A stretch of 6,059 bases of DNA, taken from positions 1 to 6,059 of the forward strand of contig JAGLYR010000326.1 of assembly GCA_023132135.1 (NCBI GenBank), given 5' to 3'. The position numbers were made by a program, and so were the translations under genes. Positions within the stretch are counted from its first letter, which is position 1. Every line of letters starts with the position of its first letter. This stretch comes from Candidatus Eiseniibacteriota bacterium. GTDB taxonomy: Bacteria; Arandabacterota; Arandabacteria; JAGLYR01. The notes under the pieces were generated by a model. It did no database searches and was not told where the DNA came from. It saw nothing but the letters and a program-made list of their open reading frames with translations. Positions 3-6,009 of the stretch are shown piece after piece.

Positions 3-68
3 CGTTTGGGGCACGAACCACATGCAGGCAAGATAGTTGCAACGTCAGACCGGAGAAGTTGTGCATAA
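3..68 (+). CDS. Possible 3' end of an upstream gene
   Basis: The first bases read open in frame 3 as a tail ending LGHEPHAGKIVATSDRRSCA and a TAA at 66-68. This stop shares its last A with the ATG of the Mur ligase gene (TAATG), a common arrangement of translationally coupled genes. A competing reading is frame 1, which ends LVWGTNHMQAR at a TAG at 34-36 and has a higher share of G/C at third codon positions. Too little is visible to name a product or to choose firmly between the frames. Confidence 0.3.
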   Translation, partial: RLGHEPHAGKIVATSDRRSCA

Positions 69-1447
69 TGCAGGCTAACGAGAACTACGGCGCGTCGCTT
101 CATCTTCACTTCGTCGGTGTGGGGGGAAGCGGCGTGAGCGCCCTGGCCCAGTATCACGTGATGAGAGGGGGCTCGGCACAGGGAAGCGATCGTTCCTTTG
201 ATGCGGGGCGGAATCTGCAGACACGAGAACGTCTCGAATCGCTGGGCATTGAGATCGTTCCCCAGGACGGGTCGGGATTGACCACAGAGTGCGATGCCGT
301 GATCGTGTCCGGCGCGGTGGAGAACTCCATCCCGGACATCCATGTAGCCCGCCAGCGCAGCATCCCCATTCTTCACCGTTCCGAGCTTCTGGCCCGGTTC
401 GTATCGGAAAAGCACACGACGTCGGTCGCGGGCACGAGCGGGAAATCGACCGTCACCGCCATGATCTTCGAGATTCTCCGCTCCGCGGGCCAGGATCCGT
501 CCTTGATCACCGGTGGGAATCTCATCTCCCTCCAGAAGGAAGGACATCCGGGAAACGCCTGGGTGGGGGAATCCGATCTCCTGGTCATCGAGGCAGACGA
601 AAGTGATGGGAGTTTGATCCGGTACGAGTCGTGGATCGGGGTTCTCCTCAATCTCCATCGCGATCACAAGGAACTGGAGACGCTGGTCGGGTACTTCGAG
701 GGTTTCAGGGATCAGACACGTGGCCCGTTCCTGGTGGGGGAGGATGAAAACCTCGAGCCGTTCCGCGCCGGCGCGGTTGTGTTTGGGCTGGGGCCCGGGT
801 GTGATTTCCGGGCCGAAGCCGTCGATGTTGTCCCCGAGGGTTCCCGGTTCCTCGTCGAGGGCGTCGAGTTTTGTCTCTCGGTTCCCGGCCTTCACAATGT
901 CCGCAACGCCATCGCTGCCGTTGCCGCGTGCCGGGCATCCGGAGTCGACCTGGAAGCTGCCTCCGAGGCACTGACCCGGTTCCGGGGTGTGGAACGGCGC
1001 TTTCAGGTGGTCGGGCGCGTTCGTGGCGTCGAGGTGGTGGATGACTTTGCGCACAACCCGGACAAGATCCGGGCTGCGTTGACCACTGCGCGGGATCGGG
1101 GCGACCGGATTCTCGCTGTCTTCCAGCCCCACGGGTACGGCCCCGTCCGTTTCATGCGTGAGGAACTCGTGGATACGCTGGCCCTGAGCCTGCGGCGCGA
1201 CGACCGGTTGTGGATGCCCGAGATCTTCTACGCCGGGGGAACGGTGAACAGAGACGTCTCTTCGAAGGATATTGTCGAGGAGGTGGCGGCCTTGGGGATT
1301 CCTGCCGTGTACGCGGAGAAGCGGGATGCTCTGGTGGATCTGATCGCCGCGGAGGCGAAGGCGGGCGATGTTGTGGTGATCATGGGCGCTCGCGATCCGT
1401 CGCTGTCCGGCTTCGCCCGGCGGATTCTGGATCGCCTGACTCCCTAG
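68..1447 (+). CDS. Divergent MurC/Mpl-type Mur ligase (ATP-dependent amide ligase)
   Basis: This is a complete three-domain Mur ligase of 459 aa, close to the usual MurC/Mpl length. Family members join an amino acid or peptide to UDP-MurNAc through an acyl-phosphate made with ATP, in the cytoplasm. The N-terminal Rossmann motif is HFVGVGGSG (14-22). The central domain has the P-loop AGTSGKST (121-128), EADESDGS (175-182) and NLHRDH (195-200). The C-terminal part has PGLHNVRNA (273-281), RGVERRFQ (306-313), DDFAHNP (325-331), FQPHGYGP (352-359) and MGARDP (439-444). It departs from orthodox MurC/Mpl at several signature sites: GTSGKS in place of GTHGKT, DDFAHNP in place of DD[YF][GA]HHP, and HGY in place of HRY. 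Its substrate is therefore uncertain; it may be a paralogue rather than the housekeeping MurC. ATG 68 is chosen because GGAG at 52-55 precedes it, whereas the in-frame TTG at 59 lies too close to that site. The gene converges on the anti-sigma gene 15 bp away, with no clear terminator between them. Confidence 0.9.
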   Translation: MQANENYGASLHLHFVGVGGSGVSALAQYHVMRGGSAQGSDRSFDAGRNLQTRERLESLGIEIVPQDGSGLTTECDAVIVSGAVENSIPDIHVARQRSIPILHRSELLARFVSEKHTTSVAGTSGKSTVTAMIFEILRSAGQDPSLITGGNLISLQKEGHPGNAWVGESDLLVIEADESDGSLIRYESWIGVLLNLHRDHKELETLVGYFEGFRDQTRGPFLVGEDENLEPFRAGAVVFGLGPGCDFRAEAVDVVPEGSRFLVEGVEFCLSVPGLHNVRNAIAAVAACRASGVDLEAASEALTRFRGVERRFQVVGRVRGVEVVDDFAHNPDKIRAALTTARDRGDRILAVFQPHGYGPVRFMREELVDTLALSLRRDDRLWMPEIFYAGGTVNRDVSSKDIVEEVAALGIPAVYAEKRDALVDLIAAEAKAGDVVVIMGARDPSLSGFARRILDRLTP

Positions 1448-1462
1448 CCAGATCCGCTGTTT

Positions 1463-2017
1463 CTATTCCTTCAGGAAGGCAATAGCCCGCAAGAAAGCCC
1501 AAAGGGCCGGGATCGCGCTGAGAATCGTCACGGTGAGAGTGGTCACAAGAGGACCGGAAACCCGCTCGAAAACCTGCAGGTGTTCGCTGGGGAAATCGGA
1601 GATCCGCGCAAGGCCTCCCAGGATCGCGTGGCCCATCCATATGACGGGAGCGGCGAGAGTGTCGGCCAGGGCGTCCGTCGCAGGGAGAAGCACCCGGGCA
1701 AGATCCGCTCTCAACATCCACAGGAGGGCGATTCCCACTGCGAACGCGAACGCCGGCGCGAGACTGGCGAACCAACGGGAGCGCTTTTCCACTCGAGCCC
1801 GCGCCAGGGCTTTTTCGGACACACGCCGGGTGAAGTCTGCCGGGAGTTCCGAGGGGACCTCCTGCGCCAGGGCTTCAAGGATTCTTCTCTGCAAAAGGAG
1901 CTCGGCCCGGCAACGACTGCAGCCCGAGAGATGTGCCTGCAGCTCCCGCTCATGAGACCCGGGGAGGGTCCCATCCACTTCCTGAGCAATCCACTGGACG
2001 TAATCGGAGCATTTCAT
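1463..2017 (-). CDS. Zinc-binding (ZAS/zf-HC2) membrane anti-sigma factor
   Basis: The 184-aa product starts MKCSDY and carries the zinc-associated anti-sigma signature H29-x3-C33-x2-C36, with C3 as the probable fourth metal ligand. Such N-terminal domains hold an ECF sigma factor inactive at the cytoplasmic face of the membrane. A charged linker (about 50-82) leads to a hydrophobic segment at 83-102, a weaker one around 122-136 and a strong one at 155-182 that runs almost to the C-terminus. The protein therefore looks multi-pass, with little room for a large periplasmic sensor domain. Its ATG overlaps the sigma stop codon as ATGA (2014-2017), the usual coupled arrangement of a sigma factor with its cognate anti-sigma factor. 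The metal-ligand motif and the context make the role fairly sure. What signal releases the sigma factor is not visible. Confidence 0.9.
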   Translation of the reverse strand: MKCSDYVQWIAQEVDGTLPGSHERELQAHLSGCSRCRAELLLQRRILEALAQEVPSELPADFTRRVSEKALARARVEKRSRWFASLAPAFAFAVGIALLWMLRADLARVLLPATDALADTLAAPVIWMGHAILGGLARISDFPSEHLQVFERVSGPLVTTLTVTILSAIPALWAFLRAIAFLKE

Positions 2018-2688
2018 CCGGACTGCCCTCCGTCAGCCACCGTTTCCGGGGCACGTTCACCCACAAGGCCCGCCAGGTCCGGGTGGGCCAGCACCAGGTT
2101 CCTGAGGCGCGCTCTGGCCCGGCGAATGTGCGTCTTGACCGTGCCCATGGGAAGATTCATGATCTCGGCAATCTCCTCGTACCGGGTCTGGTGGACGTAG
2201 AACAGTGTCAGAACCGTGCGGTACCGTACCGGCAATTGCTCCACCAGTTCCTGAACGCGCCGGGAAACGTCCCTCCGTTCAATCTGCTCCTCCAGGTTCT
2301 CCCGGGTGTCCGACAGGAGCCAGTGGACTTTCTCTTCGCCCTCTTCCTCGAAAGAGAGATGCCGACCTCGCCGGCCGCGCTTGCGGAGCTCCGAGAGGCA
2401 GAGATTATGAGCGATCTTGTAGATCCAGGTGCTGAACCGGCTGCCGCTTCGGAAGCGGGGAAGAGCCCGGTACACCCGAAGGAAAACCTCCTGGGTGAGG
2501 TCCTCGTCATCGGGGCTTCCCACCATCCGCCGGACCAGCCGGTGGATCCTGTGCTTGTACCGGTCGACGAGCTCCGTGAAGGCGCCGTGGTCGTGTTCCA
2601 GGCAGCGGAGGACGAGTTCTTCATCGCTCTGCTCAACCAGGGGTTTCTCGTGGTCCATTGTCTGTTCCCGGGACAGGCGCTCATTCAC
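2014..2688 (-). CDS. ECF-family RNA polymerase sigma factor (sigma-70 regions 2 and 4)
   Basis: Numbered from the GTG at 2688 (224 aa), region 2 spans about 21-107. It includes DDEDLTQEVFLRVYRAL (60-76), which contacts core RNA polymerase, and FSTWIYKIAHNLCLSELRKR (85-104), which recognises the -10 element. An acidic linker follows. Region 4 (about 143-196) includes QLPVRYRTV and a helix-turn-helix around YEEIAEIMNLPMGTVKTHIR that reads the -35. There is no region 1 or 3, as expected for an ECF factor. The start is uncertain. GTG 2688 has GGAG five bases upstream; ATG 2658 (214 aa) has only GGGAA; ATG 2736 has no clear ribosome site. The longest open frame, to 2898, is unlikely because it would run through the proposed promoter at 2792-2820. 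The gene is cotranscribed with the anti-sigma gene through a 4-nt overlap and is probably autoregulated. Confidence 0.93.
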   Translation of the reverse strand: MNERLSREQTMDHEKPLVEQSDEELVLRCLEHDHGAFTELVDRYKHRIHRLVRRMVGSPDDEDLTQEVFLRVYRALPRFRSGSRFSTWIYKIAHNLCLSELRKRGRRGRHLSFEEEGEEKVHWLLSDTRENLEEQIERRDVSRRVQELVEQLPVRYRTVLTLFYVHQTRYEEIAEIMNLPMGTVKTHIRRARARLRNLVLAHPDLAGLVGERAPETVADGGQSG

Positions 2689-2791
2689 CTTGACTCCGAA
2701 GGGGCGGTCAAGCGCTCCAGCGTCAATTCTAGACATTATCCGTGAATCCCGCAAGGGCCTGGATGCGCTGGTCTCTCTGCTTCCATCTGAG

Positions 2792-2820
2792 TAGACGCCC
2801 GCGGCGATGAGAATGTTTCG
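2792..2820 (-). promoter_or_regulatory. ECF-type promoter for the sigma/anti-sigma operon
   Basis: On the minus strand CGAAAC (2820-2815) is followed after exactly 17 bases by CGTCTA (2797-2792). This fits the general -35 GAAAC / -10 CGTC pattern of ECF promoters (for example Bacillus sigma-M and sigma-X types). Transcription would begin near 2785, upstream of all plausible sigma start codons. The same two hexamers at the same spacing occur on the opposite strand at 2851-2879, which strengthens the call. Confidence 0.65.
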
Positions 2821-2850
2821 CCGGTAGATGGAACGAAAGCGGATTCCGGG

Positions 2851-2879
2851 TGAAACAATTGACCCGGGGGTGGCGTCTA
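2851..2879 (+). promoter_or_regulatory. ECF-type promoter for the DUF6249-like gene
   Basis: TGAAAC (2851-2856), a 17-base spacer and CGTCTA (2874-2879) match the divergent sigma-operon promoter in sequence and spacing. Transcription would begin near 2886 and leave a leader of about 84 nt before the GTG at 2970. The 30 bp between the two facing -35 elements contains GGAA-N10-TTCC (2830-2847), which could be an operator but may be chance. Confidence 0.65.
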
Positions 2880-2969
2880 TGCGGGGTGGAACGGACAACC
2901 CGGGGGCGCTGGGGAGAGGCCCGAGATCGGGTGCAATCCGGAGCGCTCATCGAACAAGGAGGAGTCGTC

Positions 2970-3368
2970 GTGCAAGAAGGGGTGATAGCGGTCTTTATTC
3001 CGATCTTCGCTATTCTGGCGGCTTTCGCAGTGGCTATTGTTGCGATGGTCCTCAAGTCCAGGGCGAAGGACCGGCAGCACAGAGAACGGATGTTCCTTGC
3101 CGAGAAGGGACTCGAGATCCCTCCGGAGCTGTATGGGACCCAGGAGGAGAAGAAGCCCAGCGATTTCCGCGCAGTCCGCGCGCTGCTTATGATTCTGGGT
3201 GCGATAACGTTCTTCGTCGGGATTGGCGTCATGGTTTCCCTGACCACGCGGAACGGTTTCTATGAAGGTGTCTACGGCATGATTCCGCTCTTCATCGGTC
3301 TCGGCTTTCTGGCCGCAGAGCGGATGATTGTGAAGTATGTCGTGAAGGCTAACGGGGATAACAATTAG
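2970..3368 (+). CDS. Small three-helix membrane protein, DUF6249-like
   Basis: The 132-aa product has a hydrophobic N-terminal helix (about 5-28) and a basic segment KSRAKDRQHRER (29-40). Next come MFLAEKGLEIPPELYG (41-56), two further hydrophobic segments (about 70-91 and 101-117) and a short basic tail. The 'EKG-x-x-[IV]-P-x-E-L' signature after a first membrane helix, and a C-terminal GMIPLFIGLGFL stretch, recall the DUF6249 family as I remember it. Its biochemical function is unknown. The GTG at 2970 is chosen because AAGGAGGAG (2956-2964) lies five bases upstream. The open frame extends to an ATG at 2850, but that would place the start inside the proposed promoter and adds a basic, unconserved-looking stretch. 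It is divergent from the sigma gene and probably transcribed by that sigma factor, so it may be a regulon member acting in the envelope. Confidence 0.8.
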   Translation: MQEGVIAVFIPIFAILAAFAVAIVAMVLKSRAKDRQHRERMFLAEKGLEIPPELYGTQEEKKPSDFRAVRALLMILGAITFFVGIGVMVSLTTRNGFYEGVYGMIPLFIGLGFLAAERMIVKYVVKANGDNN

Positions 3369-3709: not shown

Positions 3710-4810
3710 ATGAGAATCGTTTCACTGCTGACAGTCATTGCTTTCCTGGGACTCACCGCCGCGGCCTTCGCCGGCACTCCCTTGACTTCGAACAAGGTCG
3801 ATTCCAGTGCCCTCAGGGCGCTGAAGGATGCCATGGAGCACGGCTATCCCGACTATGCGGGCCGTCGTGTGGGTGGGGAAGACATGGCCAATGCAACCGC
3901 CATCCCGGGGCTTCCGTTCACCGACTCGGGCAACACCTGCCAGTTCCTGGATAACTATGATGAAGCCTGTCCGTACACCGATTCCACATCACCCGACGTT
4001 GTCTACTTCATGAAACCTCCCAGTGACATCGAGGTCGACATCTCACTCTGCAACTCGTACTACGATACCAAAGTCTACGTTTACGATGCCGCTGGAATGG
4101 CCGTTGCCTGTAACGACGATGCCTGTGATGGGCCCAACTATAGCTCCCCATACTTGTCGTGCATCCAGTGTCTCCAACTCGCGGGCGGCCAGACGTATTA
4201 CATTGTTGTCGACGGCTACGGTGGAGACTGCGGGGAATACATTCTCGATGTCTCCGAGTGCGTGCCTCCCGACCCGCCCTGTGATCTCGTATGCCCGGAA
4301 GGCGCGATCCTGGAACAGGAACCCGAATGCTTTGACCTTCTCAATGACGTCTGGAACGGTGGTTGTAACTCCGACCCTCCGGTGTTCCAGACCCTCCAGC
4401 CCGACTGCGACGGTTCCATCGTTGTGTGTGGTACGAGTGCGTACGATTACAGCGGTAGTGGCTACCGCGACACGGACTGGTACGAGATCATCCTGACGGA
4501 GGCGACGGAGCTCACCCTCTGCGTTGTCGCCCAGTTCGCGCCGCAGATCCTCATCGTTGAGGTCTTTGACTACTGCAACTCGTATGATACCTCCCGCATT
4601 GCCTGGGGACCGGCCTGTGAGCCCGTGTGCCTGACCGACACCCTCGAGCCCGGCAAGTACTGGTTGTGGGTGGGCCCGGATTTCTACGAGAACGGCAATG
4701 TTCCCTGCGGCTGGGGATACATCATGACGGTCGACGGTTTCTACCCGCCGGGCGGCCCCTCCGCCACCAAGGAGACCAGCTGGGGAGCGGTCAAGGGCCT
4801 GTACAGGTAG
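3710..4810 (+). CDS. Secreted cysteine-rich protein with two PPC-like domains and WG-K-YR tail
   Basis: The 366-aa product begins with a Sec signal peptide (MRIVSLLTVIAFLGLTAAAFA, cleavage near residue 21). Two beta-rich regions follow, about 70-184 and 193-343. Both resemble bacterial pre-peptidase C-terminal (PPC) domains: SPDVVYFMKP, VDISLCNSYYDTKVYVYD and GGQTYYIVVDGYGGDCGEYILDV in the first; DTDWYEIILTEATELTLCV and LEPGKYWLWVG in the second. Twenty cysteines in the mature part suggest many disulfides and an extracytoplasmic location. There is no peptidase or other catalytic domain, so it may bind or scaffold at the surface. The last residues, TKETSWGAVKGLYR (353-366), match the tail of the secreted protein at 5350-6009 and may be a sorting signal. 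The ATG has GGAGG five bases upstream. The gene appears monocistronic, flanked by hairpins on both sides. Confidence 0.85.
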   Translation: MRIVSLLTVIAFLGLTAAAFAGTPLTSNKVDSSALRALKDAMEHGYPDYAGRRVGGEDMANATAIPGLPFTDSGNTCQFLDNYDEACPYTDSTSPDVVYFMKPPSDIEVDISLCNSYYDTKVYVYDAAGMAVACNDDACDGPNYSSPYLSCIQCLQLAGGQTYYIVVDGYGGDCGEYILDVSECVPPDPPCDLVCPEGAILEQEPECFDLLNDVWNGGCNSDPPVFQTLQPDCDGSIVVCGTSAYDYSGSGYRDTDWYEIILTEATELTLCVVAQFAPQILIVEVFDYCNSYDTSRIAWGPACEPVCLTDTLEPGKYWLWVGPDFYENGNVPCGWGYIMTVDGFYPPGGPSATKETSWGAVKGLYR

Positions 4811-4859: not shown

Positions 4860-5180
4860 TCACTGCCTCTGCACGGCTCTTCTCACCGCCTGAATTCCAT
4901 CATCCCGGCCCCGCTTGGTGGTGTACCTCTCGCTGACGCCGATGATCTCGCCGTTGGCTGCAGTCAGCGTGAAATAGAACTGCCCGTCGGAAGATCCCTT
5001 CCGGTGAAACCGTTCGACCTTTGCGACATTCGCCTTGACGGCCCGGATTCCTTTTTCGCAGGACGACCTGGAGGCGTAGCCCTCGCTTCTCAGGACAACC
5101 CGGCCGTTTCGGGCAATGAGGCGGAAGTAGAACTGCTGATCTTTACCGCGATGAATCTGGAACTTGGGATTGGTCATCAT
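4860..5180 (-). CDS. UPF0339 (DUF1508/YegP-like) protein with two tandem repeats
   Basis: The 106-aa product consists of two copies of the roughly 47-residue UPF0339 unit. Repeat 1 (about 6-52) contains KFQIHRGKDQQFYFRL, then ARNGRVVLRSEGYASR and a helix GIRAVKANV. Repeat 2 (about 57-103) contains FHRKGSSDGQFYFTL, then AANGEIIGVSERYTTK and GIQAVRRAV. The F-Y-F-x-L, N-G-x-[VI]-[VI] and G-I-x-[AS]-V positions agree between copies. The domain is small, alpha/beta and cytoplasmic; its molecular role is not settled. Repeat 2 carries S-E-R-Y where repeat 1 has the family's S-E-G-Y. ATG 5180 is chosen because GGAGG (5191-5187) lies six bases upstream; the in-frame GTG at 5186 touches that site and is an unlikely start. 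It stands alone, convergent with the PPC-protein gene and divergent from the next. Confidence 0.92.
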   Translation of the reverse strand: MMTNPKFQIHRGKDQQFYFRLIARNGRVVLRSEGYASRSSCEKGIRAVKANVAKVERFHRKGSSDGQFYFTLTAANGEIIGVSERYTTKRGRDDGIQAVRRAVQRQ

Positions 5181-5204
5181 TGACACCCTCCTGGCCCGAA
5201 TCAG

Positions 5205-5349: not shown

Positions 5350-6009
5350 ATGACACGGATTTTCCGGATTCTCGGCTTGGCAATGTTGGGATTGATCCTG
5401 CCGACATCTGTGGCTGCGACTATCGTGACCAGCCATCTGGGAAGCGATGAGGAATTGCAGGACATGCTGCCGGAGGAGAGCGTGGCCTTTATCGCGGAAG
5501 GACGGATTGGAGATGGGGGAAGCGGGGAGGTCTACGAGCTTGGCTTGGGGCAGAACACGACGGCCCCGGATGTGACAGCGCAGTATGCCTGGGAGACGAG
5601 CGCGACAGAGGAGTTCACTCTCTCATACGACAAGGTCCTGAATGAGGCCCGGCTCGTTCTCGGGGGCAACACGCTCTCGTACTCGCCGGACCTCCTGTTT
5701 GTAGAAATCTTCCTCCGCGCCGCGGCGGTGGGTGAGAACACATCGGTTTCCATCTCCGGTCTTTACCTGGGTGGGGAGAGTGTTGCGGATTCCTGTGTCG
5801 CCACGGGAGCGGACGGTCTGGACATTCTTCGCATCAGCGGCGCGGCGTTGCTGGACGGCTTCACGCTCACCGGCGAGGTCACGATGACCTGGTCGGGCAG
5901 TCCGCCGACCGGTGATCAGCTCTCGTTCCAGGCTCGGGTTGGAAGCCCGGATCCGCTGGTGGCCACCGACACGAAGACCTGGGGTTGGATCAAGAGTCGG
6001 TACAGGTAG
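5350..6009 (+). CDS. Secreted choice-of-anchor W-like protein with WG-K-YR tail
   Basis: The 219-aa product has a signal peptide (basic MTRIFR, then a hydrophobic core, cleavage near residues 22-23). One beta-sandwich-like domain fills most of the mature part. Its segments GSDEELQDMLPE (31-42), VAFIAEGRIGDG (45-56), YAWETSATEEFTLSYD (79-94), GGNTLSYS (105-112) and FTLTGEVTMTWSGSPPTGDQ (171-190) resemble the choice-of-anchor W domain as I recall it. That family is named because its members carry differing C-terminal surface anchors. Here the C-terminus is instead TKTWGWIKSRYR (208-219), ending at the stop codon and matching the tail of the PPC protein upstream. It contains no cysteine cluster apart from one Cys at 149. 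Translation is served by a purine-rich GGGGGAAA run (5336-5343), a weaker site than those of its neighbours. Function is unknown; surface display or secretion is likely. Confidence 0.8.
   Translation: MTRIFRILGLAMLGLILPTSVAATIVTSHLGSDEELQDMLPEESVAFIAEGRIGDGGSGEVYELGLGQNTTAPDVTAQYAWETSATEEFTLSYDKVLNEARLVLGGNTLSYSPDLLFVEIFLRAAAVGENTSVSISGLYLGGESVADSCVATGADGLDILRISGAALLDGFTLTGEVTMTWSGSPPTGDQLSFQARVGSPDPLVATDTKTWGWIKSRYR

Follow-up and report, generated by a model that had tools for sequence, protein, structure and literature searches.

The window analysed here, a whole stretch of 6,059 nucleotides, encodes two exported proteins that end alike (Table 1), which raises the question of whether their common ending is a sorting signal and, if so, what would read it. 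Both open reading frames (ORFs) finish in an exact W-G-x-[IV]-K-x-x-Y-R at the C-terminus, so that the coincidence of W, G, K, Y and R counted from the stop, pointed out in a sequence-only reading of the window, stands in both, and the signal peptides claimed by that reading are obvious on both proteins. The start of the first tail, given there as 4767, was one base late, the true first codon base being 4766. The observation itself is confirmed, and is much larger than had been stated.

Table 1. Features of the window, with coordinates counted from its first nucleotide.
Feature	Coordinates	Strand	Basis
Exported protein, 366 aa: signal peptide, two beta-rich regions and tail	3710..4810	+	ORF, N-terminus, homologues, predicted model
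C-terminal tag TKETSWGAVKGLYR (14 codons, 4766-4807) and stop TAG (4808-4810)	4766..4810	+	Sequence; 36 such ends in the genome versus 1 control
Exported choice-of-anchor W protein (choice_anch_W), 219 aa, with tail	5350..6009	+	NF041928, residues 7-198; 172.5 bits versus cut-off 45, E 7e-51
C-terminal tag TDTKTWGWIKSRYR (codons 5965-6006) and stop TAG (6007-6009)	5965..6009	+	Sequence; outside domain model
Small DUF1508 protein (two repeats), lying between the tail genes	4860..5186	-	
DUF6249 membrane-type protein	2850..3368	+	
ECF sigma factor (2014-2898) and zinc-finger anti-sigma factor (1463-2017), adjacent ORFs	1463..2898	-	By eye
Mur ligase	59..1447	+	murC 299.8 versus cut-off 335.1, mpl 150.1 versus 388.7; both below cut-off

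The 3710-4810 protein had been labelled PPC, which its two beta-rich regions, seen in a low-confidence predicted model, make plausible, but the protein has no Pfam match at E 0.001, PPC included, and no NCBIfam match. In this model (mean pLDDT 49) the tail continues past the last strand, while in the choice-of-anchor W protein it occupies residues 206-219, beyond the NF041928 model; the tail is thus not simply the last strand of a known domain. Two homologues of the 3710-4810 protein (L159, L094) are likewise tail-ended.

A motif fixed at the C-terminus

In the window's genome (3.4 Mb in 345 contigs, 96% complete), the pattern W-x-x-[IV/M]-K-x-x-[YF]-R followed by a stop occurs at 36 places compared to a single place for the reversed pattern, with about 0.0006 occurrences expected from composition among 3000 C-termini, so the terminal motif is not due to chance. 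All eight genomes searched in the window's phylum contain it, at 10 to 36 places each and with at most one control match. Identical coordinates place the MAGs M3-30_Bin_374, GMC4.maxbin2.282, Meg22_46_Bin_89 and Meg22_1012_Bin_348 among the members of this phylum. When the stop codon was dropped from a stricter form of the pattern, 91 places were found in these eight genomes, with no control match, and comparison of the lists obtained with and without the stop placed 87 of the 91 exactly at a stop, showing that the motif is terminal and not merely frequent. Internal matches of the loose pattern, in a conserved WGGIKFYF protein (radical-SAM-like by eye) and a TPR-like protein, were taken as chance.

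We derived the shape of the tag from 170 distinct carriers, in which W at -9 and K at -5 were fixed by the query. The counts of G at -8 (151), I at -6 (148), L, M or I at -3 (162), Y at -2 (160) and R at -1 (169) are biased, as most carriers were retrieved by a pattern favouring those residues; at positions free of the query, S or T stands at -10 in 167 carriers, E at -13 in 105, V at -14 in 88 and P at -15 in 82. The consensus is [ST]-W-G-x-I-K-x-[LM]-[YF]-R, nine to ten residues at a free C-terminus behind a short linker rich in P, V and E. Immediately before the linker, cysteine shows strong enrichment, being present in 28, 20 and 32 of the 170 carriers at -20, -19 and -18.

The codons of the tail vary freely across carriers, with four different codons used for Gly and six for Arg, which indicates selection on the protein and rules out a DNA-level element at gene ends. 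As a separate observation, the stop codon is TAG in 31 of the 36 tail genes of the window's genome, more than in the few other genes checked there. No hydrophobic stretch is present in the last 20 residues of the 170 carriers, in agreement with the earlier statement that the tail lacks a hydrophobic helix. Its pattern of hydrophobic residues has a maximum near helical periodicity, above that of shuffled sequences, and a second maximum at strand periodicity, and on this periodicity the tail is likely to be a short amphipathic helix.

Carriers, distribution and type IX secretion

The motif is concentrated on exported proteins that are otherwise unrelated. In a crude test, 126 of 140 complete carrier ORFs scored as signal-peptide proteins, while among other ORFs of 200 aa or longer, a background that includes spurious ones, 218 of 1139 did; in the window's genome 24 of 26 complete carrier ORFs scored in this way. 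Mean column identity over 83 carriers is 7%, and their domains comprise beta-helix, NHL, FG-GAP, PKD, LTD, PPC, P-domain and choice_anch_W, E and J, along with homologues of PEP-CTERM ScyF and of rhombosortase-dependent and myxosortase-dependent M36 proteins. Families of the choice-of-anchor type have differing anchors at the protein end in different bacteria. A lipobox-like match was found in about 12 of the 126 signal-peptide carriers, few of them convincing as lipoproteins; two carriers (L070, L081) are lipoprotein-like (lipobox-like VGLVGC and FVGGC) and tailed all the same, so the tail is not simply a membrane anchor. Four adjacent tail genes of the window's genome (L008-L011, contig 161) belong to one family. 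This family recurs, tail included, in a Krumholzibacteriota MAG, where about 35% of residues are identical and the tail residues W, I, K, Y and R are among those conserved.

Across approximately 85,000 species genomes, a scan with the strict pattern returned at least 119 stretches, where we estimate about one chance match. The tag is spread over at least three phyla, including Eisenbacteria and Krumholzibacteriota; named records among the matches listed are from Eisenbacteria, Krumholzibacteriota, Aegiribacteria, Effluviviaceae, UBP1 and two labelled Gemmatimonadota, and no Bacteroidota are among them. Of 47 Eisenbacteria genomes, 39 have the strict tail and seven more a looser form, W-G-x-I-K-x-x-[YF] followed by residues like R, H, K or N (for example WGKIKMRYR, WGKIKTRFH and WGGIKQIYN), giving at least 46 of 47. 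The eight strict-negative genomes, tried as a tail-free contrast set, had to be abandoned as such: seven are looser-tailed and the eighth is only 1.4 Mb. In Krumholzibacteriota the tail was found in 74 of 80 genomes, with no control match, its last residue being R, K or sometimes E or D. One Eisenbacteria genome (G064) has degenerate tails or tails extended by one or two residues (WGKIKRSFGP in L191, WGAIKVQFKAP in L195), perhaps reflecting a relaxed or diverged receptor.

Type IX secretion (T9SS) occurs alongside the tail. The window's genome encodes 118 T9SS type A C-terminal domains, such domains are present in 33 of 33 genomes searched, and a SprA match was obtained in all eight genomes of the window's phylum and in 49 of 50 genomes with tails, the match exceeding the curated cut-off in 42 of these 50; the one genome with no match is only 1.7 Mb. 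Because T9SS is general in these phyla, this co-occurrence is weak evidence and names no receptor. Furthermore, T9SS domains number 22 to 128 in the six Krumholzibacteriota genomes that lack a strict tail, which, together with the lack of Bacteroidota among the matches listed, indicates that T9SS alone is insufficient for the tail.

The tail and the T9SS domain do, however, exchange with one another. A homologous region is followed by the tail in one protein of the window's genome (L028) and by a T9SS domain in a protein from the same class (L076); adjacent genes at another locus (L062) show the same exchange after a homologous region; and beta-helix proteins, tailed in many genomes, carry the T9SS domain in one case (L171). 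No carrier examined had both, and the T9SS domain model TIGR04183 was absent from the window proteins at E 1 and from the families of the 83 carriers at E 0.01. This exchange, read from homology, is the best argument for a targeting role, and would be compatible with either T9SS or a separate machine as the reader.

The sequence-only reading of the tail as a sorting signal survives the three refutation tests proposed with it, namely whether the motif is present on other exported proteins of the genome, of which dozens were found, whether it favours exported over other proteins, and whether it is the last strand of a domain. The dedicated recognition machinery proposed alongside it did not emerge: clustering of the neighbourhoods of tail genes gave no clearly recurrent non-tail family except T9SS-domain proteins, and no receptor, and the genes around sprA, in the window's genome and one relative, are shared, housekeeping-like and include no tail-linked candidate. 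T9SS may be the reader instead.

Candidate readers and roles

Our leading reading, held tentatively, is that the tail is a C-terminal sorting tag with a T9SS-linked reader, standing in for the T9SS domain. We infer the sorting role, route and receptor as follows. Sec would export the precursor by way of its signal peptide, and the body would fold in the periplasm, leaving the tag exposed behind its linker, probably as a small amphipathic helix or strand; an outer-membrane receptor would then bind the tag, and the protein would be sent to the cell surface or outside. The most likely route would be T9SS itself, or a shuttle that is linked to it and specific to these phyla. The type A C-terminal domain of T9SS depends for its function on its very end: loss of two C-terminal residues blocks export of P. 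gingivalis RgpB, while C-terminal extensions are tolerated in other T9SS proteins (PMC11285876). Type B signals need cognate shuttles (PMC12618676), which, combined with the sensitivity of the RgpB C-terminus, makes a clade-specific shuttle for a short peptide conceivable. Against a T9SS-linked tag we count the lack of T9SS-domain fold or sequence in the tail, and the few lipoprotein-like carriers, which would need no further anchor.

Somewhat unlikely, in our estimate, is a reader in the form of a separate, undescribed machine unrelated to T9SS, such as a TPR-like or PDZ-like receptor in the periplasm that would clamp the free C-terminus and feed its own secretion or anchoring step. The strictly terminal position of 87 of the 91 instances suggests that a free carboxylate is read, the motif does not resemble the T9SS domain, the number of tails does not track the number of T9SS domains, and the named records among the matches listed are candidate phyla, while T9SS is wider. 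However, no candidate for such a machine lies near the tail genes or around sprA, and the exchange with the T9SS domain on homologous regions is simplest if there is one common route.

We give less weight still to the tail as a docking motif, by which proteins exported along a different route would attach to a common scaffold or surface structure; it would then serve assembly, not sorting across a membrane. A short amphipathic peptide could act in this way, several lipoprotein-like carriers (L070, L081) would already be membrane-anchored, and domains of binding type, beta-helix and NHL among them, are common among carriers; yet the tail exchanges with a secretion domain, and no scaffold gene recurs near the carriers. 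A tag governing the stability of periplasmic proteins, through a C-terminus that either protects against a tail-specific protease or attracts it, would likewise be short and strictly terminal, but we consider it improbable: stability and proteolysis tags usually need far less than nine-residue specificity, so that W, G, I, K, Y and R would be excessive, and homologues have a secretion domain in the place of the tail. That the tail has no tag function, arising by one-family inheritance, as a last strand or as a DNA-level element, is scarcely credible, for although some carriers are tandem paralogues, as on contig 161, the carriers have very low column identity and unrelated domains across three phyla, and the tail lies outside the domain models.

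Comparison with known sorting signals

To our knowledge, the known bacterial C-terminal sorting signals consist either of a motif with a membrane helix or of a folded domain. We judge it an even chance that a nine-residue tag at the free C-terminus, having neither, is a sorting signal of a kind not described before, one that in several phyla directs Sec-exported proteins onto or across the outer membrane by means of a putative receptor. If true, such a nine-residue tag, confined to the very end of many proteins per genome and shared by at least three phyla, would constitute a new class of signal and would make surface proteins of these almost wholly uncultured bacteria recognisable from sequence; its W, K, Y and R at the stop offer a sharp handle for a receptor search, and if the tag feeds T9SS, then T9SS can read a short peptide in place of a folded domain. 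The tail consensus has no PDB or Pfam match. Our literature search, outside which most subscription papers lay, found no paper on such a signal, nor on these phyla together with secretion or sorting signals.

In being very short, strictly terminal and present on unrelated proteins, the tag resembles the peroxisomal targeting signal PTS1 (-SKL), an analogy of mechanism only; PTS1 operates in the cytosol of eukaryotes, and its cargo proteins lack signal peptides. Like the LPXTG motif read by sortase, it is a C-terminal sorting motif on exported proteins, but LPXTG, which does not occur in the tail consensus, is cleaved and lies ahead of a membrane helix and a basic tail, whereas the present motif is itself the end of the protein.

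The tag also resembles PEP-CTERM/exosortase, GlyGly-CTERM/rhombosortase and MYXO-CTERM/myxosortase signals, which are short C-terminal homologies on many unrelated exported proteins, and choice-of-anchor domains and M36 proteins may bear either these anchors or the present tag. Those signals pair a signature motif with a membrane helix and a basic end, whereas the tag has no hydrophobic helix: the membrane helix with basic cluster was found in none of the 170 carriers within the last 20 residues, and six tails matched no NCBIfam model, curated CTERM models included, at E 10. With the T9SS type A C-terminal domain (TIGR04183, Por_Secre_tail) it shares a C-terminal position, Sec-exported carriers with unrelated domains, many copies per genome and the same place on homologues, but that domain is folded and about 70-80 residues long, while the tag has nine to ten residues and no fold of its own. 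In its logic, the tag is akin to these known C-terminal sorting signals, without the helix or fold that defines them.
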